Shown: one piece after another, positions 4,880 to 54,363 of the stretch
How the letters are laid out: every line of letters begins with the position of its first letter
Position numbering within the stretch: position 1 is the first letter of the stretch
NCBI RefSeq assembly: GCF_026914305.1
Contig: NZ_CP113866.1
Location: 186,001 to 250,000, forward strand
DNA from: Caldicellulosiruptor acetigenus
Lineage (GTDB): Bacteria > Bacillota > Thermoanaerobacteria > Caldicellulosiruptorales > Caldicellulosiruptoraceae
DNA: 64,000 nt
Direction of reading: 5' to 3'
Translations under genes and position numbers: made by a program
Notes under the pieces: generated by a model
The model's database searches: none
Seen by the model: the letters and a program-made list of their open reading frames with translations, nothing else
What the model was told of the DNA's origin: nothing

Positions 4880-6310
4880 TTAAGCTATAAGTTTTTTAAG
4901 TTTGCTCAGTTTTTTGATAGTTAATTTAGAACAATAGAGTTTAATGTTGTGAGCAAGGATAAATAAGAGCGAATAAGTAATAGCAGAGAGCAAGAAATCA
5001 GAGAAAATAGGAATATGATCAAGAGTTTGTGTTGTATCAGAGCCCATGTAGGATTTTAGGTGGTAAATAGTCTGCTCTACAGCGACACGTTTTTTGTAGA
5101 GGTCAAAAAACTCTTGGGAATTTCTGTTGATTCCTGGGAAAGAGCGAAAGTTATCTGGGTATGTATAGAACATTCTGCCCGATTTAGAGGTAGTACAAGG
5201 CTGAGGGCAAGAGCAGATGCGTTTGCCGTCTTTGTAACAAGACATAGGGCAAATCCATTTAAAGCGCAATGAGCGATTTTTGCCTTGACATTTGCCTTCA
5301 GGTTTAAAAGGTTTATTGAACTTTTTGCAGATTGGGACACCATCTTCAGATATAACGATATTAGGGTCTGAAGTAGGTGTAGTATTTTTAGAGGCTCTTG
5401 TATTTAGAGGGATAACAATTTTGGAGAAGTTGAAAGAATTTTTTAAAGTGGAGTAGATGTTGTGTGAATCCAAGGCACTGTCAGCGATGAAAGTAGAGAA
5501 ATTTTTAGGTAGATAAGAGAATAGAGTTTCGAGTGAAGGAATTAAAGCTTTAGAGTCAGAGATAGCTTTATGTTGCAGTGGGTCTGACGAAGGAGAATCA
5601 GAGTCAAACAGAGGAACTAAAGCTAAAGGAATACCGAGAGCGTTGGTAATGACAGCAAATTTTAAAGCCCAGCAGAAATGGCCATTTACGAACATAAGGC
5701 GGATATTAGAATTAGCGTTAGCAGTTTTAGGCAAAGAAGAATAAACAAGAGAGTAGATTTTGTCAGAAGACAGCTCAGGGTTAGCTTTTGAGGTATTTTT
5801 CAAGAGTGATTGAATGAATTTAGGGTTGTTTTCACGAACCTTTGGGACAATACCGGTTGTATCGAAGATTAGGATTGAAGCAAGTTCAGGGCATTGTTGG
5901 ATAGAGATATTGTGTGCATGGATAGAGATATTTTGGAAAAGTTTTTGGATTTCGCTTGCAAATATTTTTCTGAAGCGAGAGAAAGTAGAGATAGAAGGGA
6001 CATTGCCATGTAGATTACAAAATGAGCGAAGTTCATATGAGTTAAGCAAGACAGCGCGAAGTTGGGTTAAGGTATTGAGTTTAAGGATTTTTTGGACAAA
6101 AAAGCAAAGAAGCATAGATTCTAAAGAGAAGTATCTATGCTTACCGAAGTATTTGTAGTAGGCTTTGTAGAAAGAAGAAGGTATGTAGTTGGACAAGTCG
6201 ATGAATTTGTTGAACAAGCCCAAGAGGCTTTCAGGCTTGTAAAGAGCCGAGGCCTTTATGTGGGAATACAAGTCTAAAAATGAAAGCTGATTAGGTTTGT
6301 TTTTGAACAT
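4880..6310 (-). CDS. DDE transposase of the insertion sequence
   Basis: A 476-aa transposase that looks intact. A DUF772-like N-terminal region (residues about 50-120, including SISTFSRFRK) precedes an RNase-H-type catalytic core: LIFDTTG (first Asp, about 149), FIADSALDSH (second Asp, about 265) and VAVEQTIYHLK (Glu, about 430). Cysteines cluster at residues about 350-375 (CPMSC, CSCPQPC), as in several IS1182-like enzymes. The ATG lies in GAGGAGGGTCCAAAATG, whose ribosome site sits inside a long hairpin described separately. No frameshift is seen, so the element may still be mobile. Confidence 0.88.
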   Translation of the reverse strand: MFKNKPNQLSFLDLYSHIKASALYKPESLLGLFNKFIDLSNYIPSSFYKAYYKYFGKHRYFSLESMLLCFFVQKILKLNTLTQLRAVLLNSYELRSFCNLHGNVPSISTFSRFRKIFASEIQKLFQNISIHAHNISIQQCPELASILIFDTTGIVPKVRENNPKFIQSLLKNTSKANPELSSDKIYSLVYSSLPKTANANSNIRLMFVNGHFCWALKFAVITNALGIPLALVPLFDSDSPSSDPLQHKAISDSKALIPSLETLFSYLPKNFSTFIADSALDSHNIYSTLKNSFNFSKIVIPLNTRASKNTTPTSDPNIVISEDGVPICKKFNKPFKPEGKCQGKNRSLRFKWICPMSCYKDGKRICSCPQPCTTSKSGRMFYTYPDNFRSFPGINRNSQEFFDLYKKRVAVEQTIYHLKSYMGSDTTQTLDHIPIFSDFLLSAITYSLLFILAHNIKLYCSKLTIKKLSKLKKLIA

Positions 6311-39630: not shown

Positions 39631-40206
39631 TTGAGTATTTTAAATGATTTATTTAAAAACCCCATAATAGCTGCTATTAGAGATTTAGAAAAAATAGATG
39701 ACCTCCAACAAAAACCAGTAAAGTGGGTGTTTTTATTAAAAGGAGATATTTTGAGTATAAAATATATTGTTAGTTACTTGAAAAAGATGCAGAAAAAAGT
39801 ATTTATACATATTGACTTAATGGAAGGTATTGGAAAGGATGAGATAGGTGTAAAATTTATTGCTCAAGAAGTTAAGGCTGATGGGATAATTACTACAAAA
39901 AGTAATCTTGTTACTATAGCCAAAAGAGAAGGTTTGTTTACTATCCAAAGGATTTTCATAGTTGATAGTCAAGCAAAAGAAACAGCTGAAAAAGCTATAA
40001 AAGGTGTAAATCCAGATGCTGTAGAAATATTACCAGGTGTTATTGCAAAGGTAACCGAAAAAATTTGTAGTAGTGTAAATTATCCAGTAATTGTTGGCGG
40101 TTTGGTAGAGGAAGAAGATGAAGTTTTAGAAGCACTAAGAAGAGGTGCAGTTGGAGTGTCTACCAGTGCTGAAAAACTGTGGGATTTTATATACAACCAA
40201 GAATAA
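39631..40206 (+). CDS. glpP: Glycerol-3-phosphate-responsive antiterminator GlpP
   Basis: A 191-aa barrel protein of the GlpP family. In Bacillus, GlpP with glycerol-3-phosphate lets polymerase pass a terminator in the leader of glp genes. Family segments: NPIIAAIRDLEKI, FIHIDLMEGIGKDE, ADGIITTKSNLV, QRIFIVDSQA and NPDAVEILPGV. TTG start with AGAGGTGG upstream. The glycerol genes lie 8-13 kb downstream, past a transporter, a lipase and a galactosidase. A leader terminator before the transporter operon (40772-40830) is its likely target. Confidence 0.92.
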   Translation: MSILNDLFKNPIIAAIRDLEKIDDLQQKPVKWVFLLKGDILSIKYIVSYLKKMQKKVFIHIDLMEGIGKDEIGVKFIAQEVKADGIITTKSNLVTIAKREGLFTIQRIFIVDSQAKETAEKAIKGVNPDAVEILPGVIAKVTEKICSSVNYPVIVGGLVEEEDEVLEALRRGAVGVSTSAEKLWDFIYNQE

Positions 40207-40584
40207 ATGTTGTGAAATTGAAATGTATGAAATGATGATAAGTAAAATGTTATAAAAGGCATGTGGTGAGGACATATTTACCATCAATTCATTACTAAAT
40301 AAGGAGCAAAAAGTACCCACTTTTCTGAAAATATCCTTGTATCTTGCCATCTTTGAGTTCTTTCCATAAATTTATCTTTTGTTTTGTATACCAACAAGCA
40401 TGAATCATCAGAAAATATTTATCATTCTACTATATGCGAGTTCATTTTTTAATCTGGTTTGATCTTTCCTGTTTTTTGAAAATAGCATTTCTTTTTATAA
40501 CTCTTTACTTTTCATCATTTTTGTGCACGTTTTTCGCTGTGGTAAATATCTCTACACCTATTCGAGAAAATGTGATAAAATATA
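40207..40584. other. Gap after glpP, no gene seen
   Basis: No open frame here has a good ribosome site or recognisable product. A 74-codon plus-strand frame at 40434-40658 is hydrophobic and runs across a strong promoter, so it is not accepted. Confidence 0.4.
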
Positions 40585-40613
40585 TTGACATTGTAGGACT
40601 AAAATATTATAAT
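40585..40613 (+). promoter_or_regulatory. Perfect consensus promoter of the transporter operon
   Basis: TTGACA (40585-40590), 17-base spacer, TATAAT (40608-40613). This is the best match to the vegetative consensus in the window. It lies upstream of a leader terminator, so RNA would need read-through to reach the transporter genes. Confidence 0.8.
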
Positions 40614-40711
40614 ATAAACAAAGGTGCAAGGAAAATATACGCAAAAATAATAAATTAAATATAGAGTAATGCAGCAAACAAGCAAATAGCATTAAGAATT
40701 TGTATAAATTT

Positions 40712-40740
40712 TTGCCTATATTAAAAAATGAATATAGAAT
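40712..40740 (+). promoter_or_regulatory. Second promoter before the leader terminator
   Basis: TTGCCT (40712-40717), 17-base spacer, TAGAAT (40735-40740). A transcript would start near 40747, 25 bases before the terminator stem. Confidence 0.55.
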
Positions 40741-40771
40741 AATTGAATGAGAGAGAACGGAGAAGAAGGAG

Positions 40772-40830
40772 AAGTTCTCCCAGTGGCAAAAATGCCGGTG
40801 TGCAATTTATGCCAAGGGAGAACTTTTTTT
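40772..40830 (+). terminator. Leader terminator (candidate GlpP-controlled attenuator)
   Basis: AAGTTCTCCC (40772-40781) pairs with GGGAGAACTT (40816-40825), extended inside by TGGCA and TGCCA, then a seven-T run. It stands between strong promoters and the first transporter gene. An earlier segment GAGAAC (40753-40758) can instead pair with GTTCTC (40774-40779), offering an antiterminator fold. Confidence 0.85.
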
Positions 40831-40980: not shown

Positions 40981-42276
40981 ATGAAAAGAGTAATTTCAAT
41001 TGCAATTGTGAGTTTGGTTATTTTATCACTTGTGTTAGTGGGTGGAGTTTATAGCGGTAATGTTACAAAAGCTGCTACTAAAGAAGGCAAAATTACTATT
41101 TGGGCATGGGACCCAAACTTTAATATAGCAATTATGAATGAAGCAAGTAATAGATACAAAAAGATAAATCCAAAAGTGAAATTTGAAATTGCTAATATGG
41201 CAAAAGCTGATGTGGAACAAAAACTAAATACTGTGCTTGCATCAGGAGTTAAAACAGGACTTCCAGAAATAGTTTTAATCGAAGATTATAATGCTCAAAA
41301 GTATCTAACTTCTTATCCAGGAGCTTTTGCAGATTTAACAAAGCATTTCAATTATAAAGATTTTGCACAGTATAAAGTTAGTTTAATGACACTCAAAGGA
41401 AAAGTGTATGGTGTGCCATTTGATTCAGGTGTTGTTGGCTGGTTCTACAGAAGCGATTACTTTTCAAAAGCTGGTTTTAAAGCAAATGATTTAATAAATA
41501 TTACATGGGACAAATTTATTGAGATGGGCAAGATAATAAAACAAAAGACTGGAAAGTATATGGTAGGATTTGATCCTTATGATGGTGGCTTGATGAGAAT
41601 AATGTTGCAATCTGCTGGAAGATGGTATTTTGATAAAAATGGTAAAGTTGATATTGCTAATAACCCTGTATTAAAAGAGGCTTTAATTTCTTACAAAAAA
41701 GTAGTAGATTCAGGTATTGCAAAAAAGGTTAGTGGATGGAATCAATGGGTAGCATCCTTCAATAATGGTGAAGTTGCATCAGTTGTTACAGGGGTATGGA
41801 TTATAGGATCAATAAAAGCTGAAAAGAGCCAAAGTGGGAAATGGGCAGTTGCTCCTGTTCCACGTCTAAATATAAAAGGTTCAGTTAATGCATCAAATCT
41901 TGGTGGGTCAAGTTGGTATGTTTTGCAAAATTCAAAATACAGAGATATTGCAATAGATTTTCTTAAACAAATATATGCTAAAGATATAGACTTCTATCAA
42001 AAGATTTTGATTGAAAGAGGAGCAGTAGGGACATATTTACCAGCTCAAAAAGGAAAAGCTTATACAGCAAGTGACCCATTCTTTGGAGGCCAAAAAATAT
42101 TTGTACACTTCTCTAATTGGATGAAGAATATACCTTCTGTTAATTATGGCTTGTACACTTACGAAGCAGATAGTGCAATTATGGCAGTGATGCCAGATGT
42201 ATATTCAGGGAAATTATCAGTGGATGCAGCTTTGAAGAAAGCAGAAGAACAATTTAAGAATAAAGTTGGTCAATAG
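40981..42276 (+). CDS. ABC sugar-binding protein (CUT1 type), exported
   Basis: A 431-aa extracellular solute-binding protein of the family-1 type. The N-terminus MKRVISIAIVSLVILSLVLV is a signal sequence, but no lipobox Cys follows, which is unusual for a Gram-positive binding protein. Mature part begins near KEGKITIWAWDPNFN; LPEIVLIEDYNAQ and GKVYGVPFDSGVVGWFYRSD are family segments. ATG 40981 is chosen over ATG 40948 because AAGGAGGA lies 9 bases upstream. It delivers a sugar to the two permeases that follow; neighbours suggest a galactoside such as galactosylglycerol. Confidence 0.88.
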   Translation: MKRVISIAIVSLVILSLVLVGGVYSGNVTKAATKEGKITIWAWDPNFNIAIMNEASNRYKKINPKVKFEIANMAKADVEQKLNTVLASGVKTGLPEIVLIEDYNAQKYLTSYPGAFADLTKHFNYKDFAQYKVSLMTLKGKVYGVPFDSGVVGWFYRSDYFSKAGFKANDLINITWDKFIEMGKIIKQKTGKYMVGFDPYDGGLMRIMLQSAGRWYFDKNGKVDIANNPVLKEALISYKKVVDSGIAKKVSGWNQWVASFNNGEVASVVTGVWIIGSIKAEKSQSGKWAVAPVPRLNIKGSVNASNLGGSSWYVLQNSKYRDIAIDFLKQIYAKDIDFYQKILIERGAVGTYLPAQKGKAYTASDPFFGGQKIFVHFSNWMKNIPSVNYGLYTYEADSAIMAVMPDVYSGKLSVDAALKKAEEQFKNKVGQ

Positions 42277-42355: not shown

Positions 42356-43258
42356 ATGAAGAAAATTTCATATGAAAGATATATTGATTTATGGGGTTGG
42401 TTTTTTAGCTTATTTTCTATTATAGGATTAGGTTTATTTCTTTTTTATCCTATCATATATTCACTGTATCTTTCTACATTCAGTACAAAGGGTGTTGTAC
42501 AAGAATTTGTAGGAATAGGCAATTATATAAGACTGTTTAAAGACAACACATTTATACTTTCGCTAAAAAATATATTAATTATTTTGATAATTCAGGTTCC
42601 CATAATGTTAATTTTAGCTCTAATTTTAGCTGTTATTCTTAACGACAAAAAAATAAAATTCAGAGGTCTTTTTAGAACTGCAATTTTCCTTCCAGCTGTA
42701 ACATCTCTTGTAGCATATACGGTCTTGTTTAAAATGATGTTTAGTACTGACGGCTTAATAAATCAAGCATTATTATCAATGCATTTGATAAAAGAGCCTA
42801 TACCATGGCTTATGGATCCATTTTGGGCAAAAGTAACACTTATATTTGCCTTAACGTGGAGATGGACTGGATATAACATGATTTTTTATTTGGCAGGTTT
42901 ACAAAATATTTCTTACGAGATATATGAAGCAGCTGAAATAGATGGAGCCAATAAAGTTGTCCAATTTTTCAAAATAACTATTCCAATGCTAAAACCAATT
43001 ATTGTTTTTACTTCTATCATGTCTACAATAGGGACTCTGCAATTATTCGACGAACCAATAAATTTAGCTGCAGGTGTTGTTACGGGTTCGAGCGTAGGAC
43101 CTGGAGATTCGCTACTGACGCCTTCTGTTTACATATATAATATTTGCTTTAAGTATATGCCTAATTTTGGTTATGCCGCAGCAATTTCTTATATCATAGT
43201 GATAATTGTTGCTATATTGTCATTTATTCAATTTAAGTTGGCAGGTGAAAATGAATGA
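42356..43258 (+). CDS. ABC sugar permease 1 (MalF type)
   Basis: A 300-aa membrane protein with six or so helices. The EAA loop that contacts the ATPase is EAAEIDGANKVVQFFKITIP (about residue 195-215). ATG 42356 follows GGAGGGC; the longer upstream frame runs through the stem-loop and is rejected. Overlaps the next permease by four bases (ATGA). No ATP-binding gene is in the operon; a shared MsmK/UgpC-type ATPase elsewhere is usual for this class. Confidence 0.88.
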   Translation: MKKISYERYIDLWGWFFSLFSIIGLGLFLFYPIIYSLYLSTFSTKGVVQEFVGIGNYIRLFKDNTFILSLKNILIILIIQVPIMLILALILAVILNDKKIKFRGLFRTAIFLPAVTSLVAYTVLFKMMFSTDGLINQALLSMHLIKEPIPWLMDPFWAKVTLIFALTWRWTGYNMIFYLAGLQNISYEIYEAAEIDGANKVVQFFKITIPMLKPIIVFTSIMSTIGTLQLFDEPINLAAGVVTGSSVGPGDSLLTPSVYIYNICFKYMPNFGYAAAISYIIVIIVAILSFIQFKLAGENE

Positions 43259-44073
43259 AGAAAGATACAAAAATTAAAAATTTGATCGTTTATATTTTTC
43301 TCATTATAATGTCGATTGTATCTGTATTTCCTTTTTTCTGGATGATAGTAGGGATGACCAACAAGTCGGTTGATATAATAAAAGGTAAATTAACATTTGG
43401 AAATGCATTAATAGAAAATTTCAATAATCTCTTTAGTAACTATGAAGTAGGTAGAATTATAATAAACTCCTTTAAAATTTCATTAACTATAGTTATTGGA
43501 TCACTTTTAATATCATCTATGGCAGCTTATGGATTTGAATTTTATCCATCAAAGATTCGTGAAAAGATATACGCAATATTACTGGCAACAATGATGATTC
43601 CATTTGCTGCTTTAATGGTGCCACTTTTTAGATTAATGGTAGCTTTTAATCTTTTAGATTCTCACTGGGGCGTTATCCTGCCAATGTTACCCTCAGTGTT
43701 TTTAATCTTCTTCTTTAGACAAAGTTTTAAGCTGTATCCCAAAGAGATAATTATGGCTGCAAGAGTTGATGGAGCAAGTGAGCTAAGGATATTTTTGTCA
43801 ATTGTATTTCCATCAATGAAGTCAACATATGCGGCAGCTGCCATATATTCTTTTATGACGAGCTGGAATTCTTATCTATGGCCTTTGATTGTTTTGCAGA
43901 GTGACGAACAAAAGACAATGACATTACTTGTGTCGACTCTTTCATCTGGATACAACCCAGACTTTGGGGTTATTATGACAACAGTTGTTTTAGCAACCTT
44001 GCCGATGATAATAGTATTTTTTGGATTACAAAAGTATTTTGTTCAGGGTATACTTGGTTCTGTTAAACAGTAA
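43255..44073 (+). CDS. ABC sugar permease 2 (MalG type)
   Basis: A 272-aa membrane protein, partner of the preceding permease. Helices span most of its length; the EAA loop reads AARVDGASELRIFLSIVFPS (about residue 167-187). The ending FVQGILGSVKQ is typical of CUT1 permeases. Translation is probably coupled to permease 1 through the ATGA overlap. Confidence 0.88.
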   Translation: MKKDTKIKNLIVYIFLIIMSIVSVFPFFWMIVGMTNKSVDIIKGKLTFGNALIENFNNLFSNYEVGRIIINSFKISLTIVIGSLLISSMAAYGFEFYPSKIREKIYAILLATMMIPFAALMVPLFRLMVAFNLLDSHWGVILPMLPSVFLIFFFRQSFKLYPKEIIMAARVDGASELRIFLSIVFPSMKSTYAAAAIYSFMTSWNSYLWPLIVLQSDEQKTMTLLVSTLSSGYNPDFGVIMTTVVLATLPMIIVFFGLQKYFVQGILGSVKQ

Positions 44074-44112
44074 GGTCTAAACAAAAATATGTTTTCTCAT
44101 GGACTAAAAGTT

Positions 44113-44216
44113 AAGGCTGTCTCAAAAACCGCCTGCTGGGGCTGAGACAGTCTTAAAAGGGCGGATTTTAAGTACCCCAGCCATCTAAACTTGTGCAGTT
44201 TTGCGGAGTTTAGATG
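44113..44216 (+). other. Structured intergenic region, possible small element or attenuator
   Basis: Several paired segments: AAGGCTGTCTCA with TGAGACAGTCTT (44113-44124, 44143-44154), CCGCC with GGCGG, CTGGGG with CCCCAG, and a perfect CATCTAAACT with AGTTTAGATG (44182-44191, 44207-44216). The outer sequence GGCTGTCTCA recalls ends of some insertion sequences. It lies just before the lipase gene. Confidence 0.45.
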
Positions 44217-44231
44217 ATATGAGATAGAGAA

Positions 44232-45413
44232 ATGAATGTTAGAAAGATAAATAAGGCCTTACTGGTTTTCATGTTAGTAGTAACAATTACTTTTAAGATA
44301 ATTAATTACAATTATGCAAAAGCAGGGGAATTGTCATATAATACAGCTCAGGCACCTAGACCAGATTATGGATTATATTGGTTTGGATTAGGCAATAAAT
44401 CAGTGAAATTTGAAGAAGGTAAAGTTAATCCTTACTATGACCCAAATAAACCTACTGTAATTTATGTACATGGATGGGAGAAAGACACTGGTATTAGGAA
44501 TTTTAGAGAAACATTTAACTATAAATTAAACGACCCTACCTATGGTATAGATATTAATATAGCAGATGCATGGATTAAAGCTGGGTGGAATATTGGTATA
44601 TTTTATTGGGATATGTTTTCAGATGAACCAAATGTTTTGGATGCAGAAGCAAAAATTTGGACAGCTTATGGTCCCAAGAAAATGAGGTGGAGGGACAATA
44701 AGGGTGAGTTCCATGAAAGTACATTCAACAAAAGTGCAGGACAGCTTTTTTATGAGACCTTTGTTAAAGCACTGAAAGATTATAAAGGAAACAATATTAG
44801 AATAGTAGGACATTCTTTAGGAAATCAAATGGCAATTTATTTAGCCTATATGGTTAATAACGCAGTCGCAAAAGGATGCCTTCCAAGCAATCTTATGATA
44901 AAAAGATTAGCTTTACTTGATCCATATTGGTCAGTTGGGGGAAAAGATTACTTGAATGGGAAATGGACAGGAGAAGTTTGCAGAGAATACATAAAAGATT
45001 TAAAAAATAAAAATGTATCAATTGAATTGTATAGGACCACCGCTATTGCGCAATTACCATTTGTAGCAGATGAAAACAAAGAATTGCTTAATATGGTTGC
45101 ACATGTTAACTTAAAACCGTGGTATATTCCAGCATATGAAGTAGGAGCAAAACATGTTGCTGCGCCAAATTTATATTTTATGTCTTTTGGTGCTCCACCA
45201 CCAGCATTATACGAAGAACGTTCTGCTGGGATATATGTTAAAATTTCGGGGGTTGCACCTTCAGCAGCGGTAGATGATGATATAATACGTAGTTTAATGA
45301 ATAGTGATTATAGATTTGATATGTATACAGGGGCGTATACTTCTGATTGTAAAGATGATGGGTATGTTAAAGTAAAAAGAGACAGATTAACTCAAGTAAT
45401 TCCTGTAAATTAG
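44232..45413 (+). CDS. Exported lipase-like alpha/beta hydrolase (pancreatic-lipase family type)
   Basis: A 393-aa protein with an N-terminal signal sequence (hydrophobic ALLVFMLVVTITFKII, cleavage probably near residues 33-35). VIYVHGWEKD (oxyanion region), nucleophile Ser in RIVGHSLGNQMA (about 195), Asp in ALLDPYW (about 230) and a later His near AHVNLKPW give an apparent catalytic triad; the L-D-P after G-H-S-L-G is typical of the pancreatic lipase/PLA1 family, some animal members of which attack galactolipids. It would hydrolyse acyl esters outside the cell. It lies between a sugar importer and a beta-galactosidase. Ribosome site is weak. Substrate is inferred. Confidence 0.75.
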   Translation: MNVRKINKALLVFMLVVTITFKIINYNYAKAGELSYNTAQAPRPDYGLYWFGLGNKSVKFEEGKVNPYYDPNKPTVIYVHGWEKDTGIRNFRETFNYKLNDPTYGIDINIADAWIKAGWNIGIFYWDMFSDEPNVLDAEAKIWTAYGPKKMRWRDNKGEFHESTFNKSAGQLFYETFVKALKDYKGNNIRIVGHSLGNQMAIYLAYMVNNAVAKGCLPSNLMIKRLALLDPYWSVGGKDYLNGKWTGEVCREYIKDLKNKNVSIELYRTTAIAQLPFVADENKELLNMVAHVNLKPWYIPAYEVGAKHVAAPNLYFMSFGAPPPALYEERSAGIYVKISGVAPSAAVDDDIIRSLMNSDYRFDMYTGAYTSDCKDDGYVKVKRDRLTQVIPVN

Positions 45414-45494: not shown

Positions 45495-48653
<3,159 letters not shown>

Positions 48654-48701: not shown

Positions 48702-50127
<1,426 letters not shown>

Positions 50128-50179
50128 AATGTTATAGTGTCTTAACTGAGTTAAATATTGTATGAAGGAGAAATTGGAG

Positions 50180-50216
50180 AGTCACACTTTTAAGAAAAAG
50201 TGTGGCTGTTTTTATT
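50180..50216 (+). terminator. Terminator between glpK and the glycerol-3-P dehydrogenase gene
   Basis: AGTCACACTTTT (50180-50191) pairs with AAAAGTGTGGCT around a four-base loop, then TGTTTTTA. It is 17 bases before the next start. GAAGGAGAA (50164-50172) precedes it, as it precedes the transporter leader terminator (40765-40773), so it may be a second regulated terminator. Confidence 0.75.
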
Positions 50217-50232: not shown

Positions 50233-51705
50233 ATGGTAGATGTTATTATAATTGGTGCTGGAGTAATTGGATGTACTATTGCAAAAGAACTCTCAAAATA
50301 TGAATTAAAAGTTGTTGTGATAGAAAAAGAAGAAGATGTTGCATGCGGTGCAAGTAAAGCAAATAGTGGGATTGTGCATGCAGGATATGATCCTAAGCCA
50401 GGGACGCTAAAAGCAAAGCTTAATGTAGAAGGTAATCCTCTTATTTATTCGTGGTGTGAGGAATTAGATGTGCCGTGTAAAAAGACTGGTTCACTGGTTG
50501 TAGCTCTGAATAATGAAGAGGTAGAGACAATAGAGGAGCTATATAAAAGAGGGAAAACAAATGGAGTTCCGGGATTAGAAATAATTACACGTGATCAAAT
50601 CTTAGAAATGGAACCTAATTTAAATCCGCAAGTGAAAGTGGGACTTTATGCGCCAACCGCCGGAATAGTGTGTCCATATGAGTTTACTATTGCTCTTGCT
50701 GAAAATGCAAATATGAATGGTGTAGAATTTTTATTCAACTCACCTGTAGTCGATATTATTGTAGAGAATGGGCAAGTAAAAGCTGTACGCACAAAAAATG
50801 GGTATATTCAAACAAGATTTATAATAAACGCTGCAGGAGTTTATGCAGATCTAATTTCAGAGATGGCAGGTGCAGAGAAGTATCATATAAAAGCAAGAAA
50901 GGGAGAGTATCTTTTATTTGATAGAGAATTAAAGGACCTAGTAAAAAGACCGATATTTCCTACTCCAACAAAGGTATCAAAAGGAATACTTGTATGTCCC
51001 ACAGTTGACGGCAATACATTTATTGGACCTAATGCAAATGATGTGGAGGACAAAGAGGATGTTAGTGTAACTCAATTTGGTATCGATGAGATAGTAAGTG
51101 GGGCAAGAAAGCTTATTCCAAATTTACCGTTAAGACATGTTATAACCTCATTTGCTGGGCTAAGGGCAGTAGCAGACACAGATGATTTTATAATTGGTGC
51201 GTCAAGATTAGTTAAGGGTTTTATAAATGTTGGAGGTATACAATCACCTGGACTTACCTCATCGCCGGCAATAGCACATATGGTAATTGACATTCTAAAA
51301 GAAGAAGGATTGAAACTTCGAGAGAAGAACAATTATATTCCTGGAAGACCTAAAAAGTATAGATTTAGAGATATGAGCAATGAAGAGAGGAAAAGAGTTA
51401 TATTTGAGAACTCAGCATTTGGACATATTGTTTGCAGGTGTGAGACTGTTACGGAAGCAGAGATTGTAGATGCAATAAGAAGACCGGTTGGGGCAAGAAG
51501 TTTAGACGCGGTAAAAAGGAGAACAAGAGCTGGCATGGGAAGATGCCAGGGAGGTTTTTGTTCGCCAAAGGTTGTTGAGATATTGGCAAAGGAATTAGGG
51601 GTGGATCCGCTTGAAATTACTAAGAAAGGACCTGGCTCGAATATACTTTTAGGTCATATAAAAGACTTTATAGAAGATAGAGGTGGTGAAGAAGATGGAG
51701 AATAG
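50233..51705 (+). CDS. glpA: FAD-dependent glycerol-3-phosphate dehydrogenase (GlpA type)
   Basis: A 490-aa flavoprotein that oxidises glycerol-3-phosphate to dihydroxyacetone phosphate. FAD motif IIIGAGVIGCTIAKEL at the start, DAO fold to about residue 370, then a BFD-like 2Fe-2S domain (CRCETVTEAEI and GMGRCQGGFC, about 410-450). ATG 50233 is chosen since GGGAGGG precedes it; the longer frame lies in the terminator. Overlap with the next frame suggests coupling. In Thermotoga and clostridia this gene, a pyridine-nucleotide oxidoreductase and a DUF1667 gene form one oxidation complex. Confidence 0.87.
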   Translation: MVDVIIIGAGVIGCTIAKELSKYELKVVVIEKEEDVACGASKANSGIVHAGYDPKPGTLKAKLNVEGNPLIYSWCEELDVPCKKTGSLVVALNNEEVETIEELYKRGKTNGVPGLEIITRDQILEMEPNLNPQVKVGLYAPTAGIVCPYEFTIALAENANMNGVEFLFNSPVVDIIVENGQVKAVRTKNGYIQTRFIINAAGVYADLISEMAGAEKYHIKARKGEYLLFDRELKDLVKRPIFPTPTKVSKGILVCPTVDGNTFIGPNANDVEDKEDVSVTQFGIDEIVSGARKLIPNLPLRHVITSFAGLRAVADTDDFIIGASRLVKGFINVGGIQSPGLTSSPAIAHMVIDILKEEGLKLREKNNYIPGRPKKYRFRDMSNEERKRVIFENSAFGHIVCRCETVTEAEIVDAIRRPVGARSLDAVKRRTRAGMGRCQGGFCSPKVVEILAKELGVDPLEITKKGPGSNILLGHIKDFIEDRGGEEDGE

Positions 51706-52978
51706 AGATTTAGTAATAATTGGTGGAGGACCTGCGGGACTTGCAGCTGCTATTGAAGCCAAAAAAAATGGTGTTGAGGATATATTATTAATAGAGAGGG
51801 ATTCGCATTTAGGAGGGGTCTTGCAACAGTGTATCCACAATGGTTTTGGCCTTCATATATTTAAAGAAGAACTTACTGGTCCTGAGTATGCAGAGAGATT
51901 TATTAATGAACTTAAATCTATGAATATAGAAGTTATGCTTGAGACGATGGTAATTGAGTTGACTTCGCAAAAGAAAATTACGGCAGTAAGCAAGAAATAC
52001 GGTTTGATAGAGATTCAAGCAAGAGCTGTGATATTAGCAATGGGTTGCAGAGAGAGAACAAGAGGAGCTATAAATATCCCTGGCACAAGACCAGCTGGGA
52101 TATTTACAGCGGGAACTGCTCAAAGGTATGTGAATATAGAAGGTTTTATGCCAGGCAAGGAGATAGTTATTTTAGGGTCAGGTGATATTGGACTTATTAT
52201 GGCGAGAAGATTAACATTAGAAGGTGCTCATGTAAAATGTGTTGTAGAAATTATGCCATATTCCAATGGACTTACAAGAAACATTGTTCAGTGTTTGAAT
52301 GACTTTGATATACCTTTGTTATTAAGCCATACTGTTATAAATATACATGGTAAGAAACGTATTGAAGGAGTAACAATTGCTAAAGTTGATGAAAGTTTAA
52401 GACCGATACCAGGAACAGAGAGATATATTTCTTGTGATACATTGCTTTTGTCGGTTGGATTAATACCTGAAAATGAGTTATCTAAAATGGCTGGGATAAA
52501 GATTGATAGTGTGACAGGAGGACCAATTGTAAATCAGAGAATGGAAACAACAGTAGAAGGGATATTTGCTTGTGGGAATGTATGTCATGTTCATGATTTA
52601 GTAGATTTTGTTACTCAAGAAGCACAACTTGCGGGTAAAGGTGCAGCACAATATTTAAAGAGTGAAAAACCATCTTCACAGCGCATGGTTAAGGTAGATG
52701 TTGGGGAAGGTTTAAGATATGTACTTCCGCAAATAATATCACCTGAGTTAATGGTGAGCGATAAACAAAACTTTTTTATGAGGAGCATAGCACCTATGAG
52801 TAAGGCAAGATTAATGATAACCTCAAACAATGGCGTTATAAAAACTCAGACTTTGAGATTTGTAAAACCAAGTGAGATGATTAATATTGTTTTAAAGAAA
52901 GAGGAGCTTTTAGAACCGAACATTGAATTTCTCAGATTCACCTTAAGGGAAGAAGGTGATGGTTATGGAGATGAATAA
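51695..52978 (+). CDS. NAD(P)/FAD oxidoreductase of glycerol-3-P oxidation
   Basis: A 427-aa flavoprotein. FAD motif LVIIGGGPAGLAAAIEA at the N-terminus, NAD motif IVILGSGDIGLIMARRL (about residue 155), and second FAD motif IFACGNVCHVHD (about 288). It probably accepts electrons from GlpA and passes them to NAD or another carrier. ATG 51695 lies inside the end of glpA with AGGTGGTG upstream; the stop overlaps the DUF1667 start. Confidence 0.83.
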   Translation: MENRDLVIIGGGPAGLAAAIEAKKNGVEDILLIERDSHLGGVLQQCIHNGFGLHIFKEELTGPEYAERFINELKSMNIEVMLETMVIELTSQKKITAVSKKYGLIEIQARAVILAMGCRERTRGAINIPGTRPAGIFTAGTAQRYVNIEGFMPGKEIVILGSGDIGLIMARRLTLEGAHVKCVVEIMPYSNGLTRNIVQCLNDFDIPLLLSHTVINIHGKKRIEGVTIAKVDESLRPIPGTERYISCDTLLLSVGLIPENELSKMAGIKIDSVTGGPIVNQRMETTVEGIFACGNVCHVHDLVDFVTQEAQLAGKGAAQYLKSEKPSSQRMVKVDVGEGLRYVLPQIISPELMVSDKQNFFMRSIAPMSKARLMITSNNGVIKTQTLRFVKPSEMINIVLKKEELLEPNIEFLRFTLREEGDGYGDE

Positions 52979-53330
52979 AGAGGTTATTTGTATTGTTTGT
53001 CCGAGAGGTTGTCATATAGATGTTAAGTTAGTGGATGGTAAAGTTGCAAATATATCAGGTAATGTTTGCCAAAGAGGTAAAACTTATGCGGAAGCTGAAG
53101 TGACAAATCCTAAGAGAGTTTTGACGACAACAGTGAGCATAATAGATAATGGAAATCAAAAGAGACTACCTGTTAGGACAAAAGAGCCCATACCCAAGAA
53201 CCTGCTTATGAAAGCAATGAAAGAATTGAAAAATGTAACTGTAAAGCCTCCGGTAAAGATGGGTGATGTTGTTTACAAAAACATTGCAGGTTCCGGGGTA
53301 GATGTTATTGCTTCAAAGAGTTGGGAATAA
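52965..53330 (+). CDS. DUF1667 protein, partner of GlpA-type dehydrogenase
   Basis: A protein of about 121 aa with CIVCPRGCHIDV near the start and a second Cys in GNVCQRGKTYAEAEV, the DUF1667 pattern thought to bind a metal or cluster. It is regularly encoded with GlpA-like and pyridine-nucleotide oxidoreductases; its chemistry is not established. Several ATG codons are close together (52959, 52965, 52971); 52965 best fits the AAGGTGATG site. Confidence 0.8.
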   Translation: MEMNKEVICIVCPRGCHIDVKLVDGKVANISGNVCQRGKTYAEAEVTNPKRVLTTTVSIIDNGNQKRLPVRTKEPIPKNLLMKAMKELKNVTVKPPVKMGDVVYKNIAGSGVDVIASKSWE

Positions 53331-53352: not shown

Positions 53353-54285
53353 ATGAGAGAAAAATACAGAGGATTTTGGCTGAAGGCCGAAGATGGGCAT
53401 GATATTTATTTGCACGCATGGGATCAGGTTGACAATCCAAGAGGCATATTACAAATATTTCATGGCATGGCTGAGCATGGGAAAAGATATGAAGGGTTTG
53501 CTCAATACATGAATGAACATGGCTTCATAGTTTATGCTGATGATCACAGAGGACATGGTAGAACTGCGGGAAGTTTAGAAAATATAGGTTATATAGGAGA
53601 AGACGGATTTAATAAGTTAGTCCAGGATGAATATTTAATAAGCAAATTTCTGAAGGAGAAATATCCATGGTTACCTTTATTTATAGTGGCTCATAGTTTT
53701 GGTTCTTTTGTAGCACAGGAATATATAATAAGGTATGGGTGGGGAATAAATGGGTTGGTGCTAAGTGGCTCTGCAGCTATGAACACATTAAAAGCAAAAT
53801 TAGGTTATATTTTAGCCAGTATAGAAAGGCTTATACATGGGGAAAAATACCGTAGTCGTTTTTTGGATTGGTTGAGTTTTGGCACGTTTAACCGCAGAAT
53901 AAAGAACAACCCGAGCAAGTTTGCTTGGCTTAGCACGGACGAGAAAGAAGTACGCAAATATGAAGAAGATCCTTACTGTGGAGGAATTTTTACTACAGGA
54001 TTTTTTTATTATCTTTCAAGAGGATTCTTGGGTTTATATCGTCCAGAACGCTTGGCTAATCTGCCCAAAGACTTGCCAATATTAATTATTGCTGGAGAAG
54101 AAGACCCCGTTGGGGAATATGGACGTTTAGTTAAAAGGCTTTATAATATTTATAAAGAGGCAGGATGTCAAAATGTTGACCTAAAACTTTATCCTGGTAA
54201 GAGGCATGAGCTGTTTAATGAAGTTAATCGCGAAGAGGTATATGCAGATGTTTTAAACTGGCTTGATTGCATAACGGGAAAGTAA
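53353..54285 (+). CDS. Monoacylglycerol-lipase-like alpha/beta hydrolase
   Basis: A 310-aa cytoplasmic serine hydrolase of the Hydrolase_4 family. Features: IFHGMAEHGKRYEGF (oxyanion loop typical of monoglyceride lipases), YADDHRGHGRT, nucleophile Ser in VAHSFGSFVAQE (about 116), Asp in AGEEDPVGEYG (about 255) and His in GKRHELFNE (about 286). It would remove a fatty acid from monoacylglycerol or lyso-lipid. No signal peptide. AGGAGG precedes the ATG. Its place directly after glycerol-3-phosphate genes supports a lipid-glycerol role. Confidence 0.85.
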   Translation: MREKYRGFWLKAEDGHDIYLHAWDQVDNPRGILQIFHGMAEHGKRYEGFAQYMNEHGFIVYADDHRGHGRTAGSLENIGYIGEDGFNKLVQDEYLISKFLKEKYPWLPLFIVAHSFGSFVAQEYIIRYGWGINGLVLSGSAAMNTLKAKLGYILASIERLIHGEKYRSRFLDWLSFGTFNRRIKNNPSKFAWLSTDEKEVRKYEEDPYCGGIFTTGFFYYLSRGFLGLYRPERLANLPKDLPILIIAGEEDPVGEYGRLVKRLYNIYKEAGCQNVDLKLYPGKRHELFNEVNREEVYADVLNWLDCITGK

Positions 54286-54319
54286 TTTTATGCTTAATAA
54301 TTTTATTTTTAAGAGATAA

Positions 54320-54363
54320 AGAAAGATCGGGATAAAAAACTCCATTTTCCTGGTCTTTTTTTT
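54320..54363 (+). terminator. Terminator of the glycerol/lipid operon
   Basis: AAAGATCGGGA pairs with TTCCTGGTCTTT (with G-U pairs), then an eight-T run. Confidence 0.7.

Follow-up and report, generated by a model that had tools for sequence, protein, structure and literature searches.

A probable GlpP-dependent conditional terminator at the head of a galactoside- and glycerol-related operon in Caldicellulosiruptor acetigenus

Antitermination by GlpP is established on a handful of Bacillus subtilis leaders. GlpP is reported to act there on the leaders of glpD, glpT, and glpFK, which are described as a promoter, a GlpP site, and a terminator (PMC9604022). The work behind this picture of the glpD, glpFK, and glpTQ leaders is that of Holmberg and Rutberg (1992), Glatz (1996, 1998), and Darbon (2002), as cited in PMC9604022 and PMC3997798.

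The DNA considered here, which we call the window, comprises bases 186001 to 250000 (64 kb) of the single-contig, 2.74-Mb genome of C. acetigenus; unless stated otherwise, positions are those of the window. Like the B. subtilis glp leaders, the leader described below carries a promoter, an element, and a putative conditional terminator in its 5' untranslated region, with a gene for a GlpP-family regulator at hand and glp genes downstream. Unlike in B. subtilis, the first genes after the leader encode a galactoside-type ABC importer, a lipase-like protein, and LacZ rather than GlpF; two elements lie within one operon; and the host belongs to another class than Bacillus.

The leader and its two alternative hairpins

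A preliminary description of this DNA, made from its letters, claimed a perfect promoter and a second good one before a strong intrinsic terminator, a transporter start about 150 bases beyond, an alternative GAGAAC/GTTCTC pairing that could break the terminator, and a GlpP gene just upstream. Each of these features is present in the analyzed sequence, as listed here.

39631 to 40206, + strand: glpP, glycerol-3-phosphate responsive antiterminator, with a TTG start (PF04309, E = 3.4e-64)
40585 to 40613, + strand: promoter 1, TTGACA-17-TATAAT, 12/12 (TTGACA at 40585-40590, TATAAT at 40608-40613)
40712 to 40740, + strand: promoter 2, TTGCCT-17-TAGAAT, 9/12, 18 nt 5' of the GGAGA loop
40753 to 40779, + strand: GlpP-type antiterminator hairpin, GAGAAC-GGAGA AGAA GGAGA A-GTTCTC, the best match to our model R2 in 64 kb
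40772 to 40830, + strand: intrinsic leader terminator, sharing GTTCTC with the antiterminator (-26.5 kcal/mol, z = -4.7)

The product of glpP matches the Pfam family G3P_antiterm over positions 1 to 173 of 173, with 215.8 bits against a cutoff of 27, and has solved relatives (3kts and 1vkf). Promoter 1 is the sole 12/12 site on either strand of the window, where first-order Markov sequences of the same composition lead one to expect a mean of 0.08. In the terminator, AAGTTCTCCC (40772-40781) pairs with GGGAGAACTT (40816-40825), and T follows to 40830; a simple terminator scan missed it because the loop is long. The importer ATG at 40981 stands 151 nt past the terminator. The 5' untranslated region thus defined has promoters and then an intrinsic terminator. 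The alternative hairpin pairs GAGAAC (40753-40758) with GTTCTC (40774-40779) around GGAGAAGAAGGAGAA, with a free energy of -5.4 kcal/mol.

At many sites in other genomes, the element begins 22 to 25 nt past the -10 box. Here the distance is 18 nt from promoter 2 and 145 nt from promoter 1, which places the nearer, weaker promoter closer to the usual leader geometry. The distance from glpP to the element, about 550 nt, is above the usual. Degenerate copies of a dispersed, apparently noncoding repeat lie within 40207-40583, between glpP and the leader, with up to 82% identical pieces near genome positions 2651472 and 2478438. These copies may account for the long distance.

Some parts of the leader, taken one by one, are what an ordinary terminator behind glpP, a constitutive promoter nearby, and a chance GAGAAC/GTTCTC pair would offer. 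By itself the hairpin has an ordinary stability (z = -1.4), and 9/12 promoter sites are frequent in this AT-rich DNA (35 in 10 kb, versus 41 in shuffles). Such a coincidence is hard to reconcile with the position of both promoters upstream of the terminator and with the fact that the only two loop-plus-terminator sites in the 64 kb both fall inside the glp operon. The weight of the hairpin comes from its conservation in other genomes, its stability being unremarkable. Model R2, which was built without the window and thus has this leader outside its training set, finds its best match on either strand of the window at 40753-40779. The score is 14.9 bits, which corresponds to E of about 5 genome-wide and makes the window copy weak by score alone, so the case for the element is a matter of context. 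On whole genomes, R2 sites under about 22 bits are mostly chance, and the whole-genome matches in Listeria were rejected.

The leader did not correspond to any known cis-regulatory RNA in Rfam (riboswitch, T-box, RAT, and others): a covariance-model search gave zero matches at the gathering score in the 64-kb window and only chance-level matches in six loci. A DNA search with the leader itself likewise gave chance matches only, of which two loci were inspected and rejected.

Recurrence and covariation of the element in the Bacillota

From two samples of whole genomes, we gathered 136 glpP-centered loci of other Bacillota and looked in them for RGAGA-N-RGAG loops with a terminator behind, whether or not an antiterminator stem was present. 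The same design is found in 54 of the 136, across many families: a hairpin is closed on a purine loop, RGAGA-N3/4-GGAGA, and its 3' arm doubles as the 5' arm of an intrinsic terminator. The loop precedes 63 of the 697 terminators on the glpP strand and none of the 431 on the opposite strand (Fisher p = 4e-14; 136 loci); in 29 unrelated loci, none of 202 terminators has it. Sites usually lie at most 250 nt 3' of glpP or ahead of glpP itself. The purine loop is the most conserved part of the element. When 58 distinct sites were chosen regardless of stem, 28 of them had at least 5 Watson-Crick pairs across the loop, compared with a mean of 8.0 (maximum of 15 in 500 trials) when 5' flanks were swapped between sites; shuffling each flank gave 1.9.

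The stems themselves are diverse, as exemplified by GAGGACTT/AAGTCCTC, TATGGC/GCCATG, TGTGGT/ACCGCA, TTGGTTC/GGACCAA, and the GAGAAC/GTTCTC of the window. A MAFFT alignment of all sites in one fixed stem register diluted the covariation because the loop-to-stem distance varies from 0 to 4 nt, and it was therefore replaced by a model of one-register sites that was then extended. Among 17 one-register sites, all 7 pairs vary on both sides, with a covariation of 0.881 versus 0.238 after shuffling, and sliding the structure gives no more than 0.20. With 46 distinct sites aligned to the model, an alignment that leans toward the structure, the covariation is 0.711 versus 0.212 shuffled. The stem has been preserved through compensatory change, and the check for covarying pairs that the preliminary description had proposed came out positive. 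Each pair of the stem shows compensatory changes, and the element beside glpP is confined to the glpP strand. Because the loop, the stem, and the terminator turn up together next to glpP, covarying, in many families and are absent from the opposite strand, a chance pair behind a plain terminator is a very improbable account of the leader.

The element also occurs beyond the seed sites. One genome carries TATGGT GGAGATTTGGAGA ACCATA and a terminator ahead of a glpA/glpD-type gene, and another (G208) likewise has a site and terminator ahead of such a gene; in a third genome, a site about 1.9 kb from glpP has the hairpin but a weak T-run. In the Bacilli, sampled via the class of the Listeria genome, the element stands immediately 5' of 15 of 30 glpD-type loci (e.g., GGTC-GGAGAACAGGAGAA-GACC plus a terminator), and Listeria itself has GTCTGAGATTCGGAGAGAC plus a terminator. 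At the level of the class, then, the window leader and the glpD leaders of Bacilli share one RNA element, a purine loop with a stem that overlaps the terminator. Since B. subtilis GlpP acts on glpD, glpT, and glpFK leaders (PMC9604022) and glpD leaders of Bacilli carry the element, the element is most simply identified, at this level, with the B. subtilis GlpP site. The earlier appeal to GlpP action on glp leaders in Bacillus is borne out by the same paper.

Within the genus, the core glpP locus has the element ahead of glpA-glpB. In the window's own genome (G000), it stands at 5685-5710 of locus L274 (contig C1, near 1787190, minus strand), ahead of glpA-glpB-DUF1667, and glpK is not adjacent.

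Several other arrangements were seen in the survey. Nine loci have the element ahead of glpP itself, which suggests autoregulation by antitermination. Six have it ahead of a gene for a small membrane-like protein, which matches DUF6905 in the three tested; this gene is a candidate member of glycerol regulons. In seven loci, a GlpP-family gene and the same element stand directly ahead of a RuBisCO-like gene (PF00016/PF02788 in one of them, L133), so that a pathway other than that of glycerol may have a switch of the GlpP type.

Gene content and origin of the operon

The gene order is glpP, element, ABC importer, lipase-like gene, lacZ, glpK, element, glpA, glpB, DUF1667 gene, and monoacylglycerol-lipase-like gene. 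The features beyond the leader are as follows.

40981 to 42276, + strand: ABC importer solute-binding protein (SBP_bac_8; profile match, orthologues compared)
42356 to 43258, + strand: ABC permease 1 (BPD_transp_1; the start is an ATG with a ribosome-binding site)
43255 to 44073, + strand: ABC permease 2 (BPD_transp_1)
44232 to 45413, + strand: secreted lipase-like protein (hydrophobic N terminus, GHSLG; Lipase_3 E = 2.7e-4, slightly below the cutoff)
45501 to 48653, + strand: GH2 beta-galactosidase of the LacZ type (profile match)
48702 to 50027, + strand: glpK, C terminus lost (TIGR01311 positions 1 to 442 of 496)
50167 to 50216, + strand: second GlpP-type element, GGAGAAATTGGAGA plus terminator, with a weak antiterminator stem
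50233 to 51705, + strand: glpA-like gene or type 2 glycerol-3-phosphate oxidase, with a BFD domain (profile match)
51695 to 52978, + strand: glpB-like FAD/NAD reductase (profile match; relatives compared)
52965 to 53330, + strand: small protein of the glpA-glpB cluster, which we take to be of the DUF1667 type (translation; homologues at the same place)
53353 to 54285, + strand: monoacylglycerol-lipase-like hydrolase (Hydrolase_4; profile match)
54318 to 54352, + strand: probable operon-end terminator (hairpin and T8)

The leader has glycerol and glycerol-3-phosphate genes under it (glpK, glpA, and glpB, after five other genes). The preliminary reading of the leader as a GlpP attenuator is strengthened by the covariation, the strand bias, and the glpD leaders of Bacilli. 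Its scope has to be redrawn, for the switch heads a whole operon and not the ABC importer alone, and it is extended by the second element ahead of glpA and by the purine loop, which went unmentioned there and is the best conserved part.

The lipase-like gene is present in 3 of 398 genomes. Its product had no solved relative by sequence, and a single-sequence fold was unusable (pLDDT of 41.5); the label "lipase" is a weak one because its basis is a weak Pfam match and the GHSLG motif. Between permease 2 and this gene (44074-44231) lie two perfect or near-perfect hairpins, of the GACTGTCTCA and CATCTAAACT types, with no clear T-run; they are possibly sites of RNA processing or traces of mobile elements.

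The glpK gene has suffered an internal deletion and a frameshift. Its frame ends at 50027, directly behind TETTAL; the tail that should follow (WQLDREFK...SGWKKAIERS) is found in another frame (50015-50130), which suggests that a few tens of bases were lost between short repeats. A search of the genome turned up no other close glycerol kinase, its other FGGY kinases being 26 to 31% identical. With the only close glycerol kinase found there truncated, the strain may have a broken inducing loop, or glycerol-3-phosphate may come from another source.

This damage bears on two further readings. In one, the element is still recognizable in a decaying copy, and the operon is no longer a working regulated unit; the glpK lesion, the degenerate repeat between glpP and the leader, and the absence of the operon from the other sampled genomes of the genus all agree with it. 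We consider decay improbable, given that the promoters, both terminators, the loops, and all the other reading frames are intact and that the first antiterminator stem is perfect. In the other reading, a GlpP-family antiterminator does act on the leader but answers to another signal, for example, a different small phosphorylated metabolite. The truncated glpK would fit, as would the RuBisCO-like genes behind the element in several genomes, since the family may have other ligands, and the genome's second, core GlpP, from which this one could differ. Weighing against a different ligand are the presence of glpK, glpA, and glpB within the operon and a nearest GlpP relative that sits in a plain glycerol operon, and we regard it as unlikely, to about the same degree as decay.

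The glpP of the window is the genome's second and is 42% identical to the core glpP common to the genus. In genome G007, of the same genus, the only traces of GlpP are two fragmentary matches separated by about 2 kb (contig C1, near 1660139 and 1662203), as if its core glpP were interrupted. The nearest GlpPs found are 60 to 61% identical, and among them is that of G208, whose operon reads glpP, element, glpF, glpK, element, glpA, glpB, DUF1667. From this GlpP and the shared frame, the window appears to hold an operon of this type in which importer, lipase-like, and LacZ genes replace glpF.

Orthologues of the importer (64 to 85% identical) occur in four genomes, all without the element. In three of the four, they are followed by genes for a GH36 alpha-galactosidase and a GH2 enzyme, families assigned by a family search in one of the three and by likeness in the others; a 49% identical relative in another genome is next to a LacZ-type gene. 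Because the orthologues elsewhere lack the element and lie beside galactosidases, a galactoside importer seems to have been recruited to GlpP control. The set of lipase, galactoside importer, beta-galactosidase, glycerol kinase, and glycerol-3-phosphate oxidase points to galactosylglycerol from galactolipids as a conceivable substrate. We put forward, tentatively, a mosaic: a clostridial glycerol operon in which genes for LacZ, a secreted lipase-like enzyme, and a galactoside ABC importer took the place of glpF, so that breakdown of the galactolipid head group (galactosylglycerol) might come under GlpP antitermination and the released glycerol might signal further uptake of the parent compound. 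Our literature searches found no clostridial GlpP consensus and no bacterial galactosylglycerol operon.

Proposed mechanism and comparison with known systems

We propose that the leader is very probably a GlpP-dependent conditional terminator that opens when glycerol-3-phosphate rises. Without inducer, the terminator (-26.5 kcal/mol) would prevail by a wide margin over the antiterminator (-5.4 kcal/mol), so that RNA polymerase from either promoter would halt at 40830. As glycerol-3-phosphate increases, GlpP encoded upstream would bind the purine loop RGAGA-N-GGAGA and hold the GAGAAC/GTTCTC hairpin, which would tie up the terminator's 5' arm, and transcription would continue to the genes for the importer, the lipase-like protein, and the beta-galactosidase and to the glp genes. 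The second element, ahead of glpA, would be a further check on transcription. Binding of the loop by GlpP and the role of glycerol-3-phosphate as the signal are what we infer from genomic context and conservation, and the operon would convert galactosylglycerol-type compounds to galactose, glycerol, and glycerol-3-phosphate.

An old proposal holds that galactosylglycerol is a natural substrate of lac-type systems, and a lacZ wired to a glycerol signal would agree with it. The Bacillota-wide consensus is perhaps the more useful result, and as far as the literature searched and Rfam show, it has not been cataloged. The covarying consensus (a stem, the loop RGAGA-N3/4-GGAGA, and a second stem arm common with the terminator) amounts to a definite hypothesis for the GlpP binding site, in a family with solved members. 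With it, GlpP regulons can also be predicted from sequence, such as the galactoside and lipid operon here and the RuBisCO-like and DUF6905 genes elsewhere.

Among antiterminators, the closest analogy outside the family is with the RAT systems of LicT, SacY, and BglG, in which a protein likewise keeps in place a hairpin of the RNA that shares sequence with a terminator. Unlike in those systems, the regulator here is a PF04309 protein and the leader has no Rfam match; among the neighboring genes examined, none encodes a PTS-regulated protein. The operon resembles that of G208 in its GlpP (60% identical), GlpK (79%), GlpA (65%), and GlpB (71%), with elements at the same two places, and differs from it in that the importer, lipase-like, and GH2 genes replace glpF and glpK is truncated. 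Finally, it has the same loop and terminator as the sampled glpD leaders of Bacilli. The mechanism is already known from such systems, and it is the cargo of the operon that is unusual.
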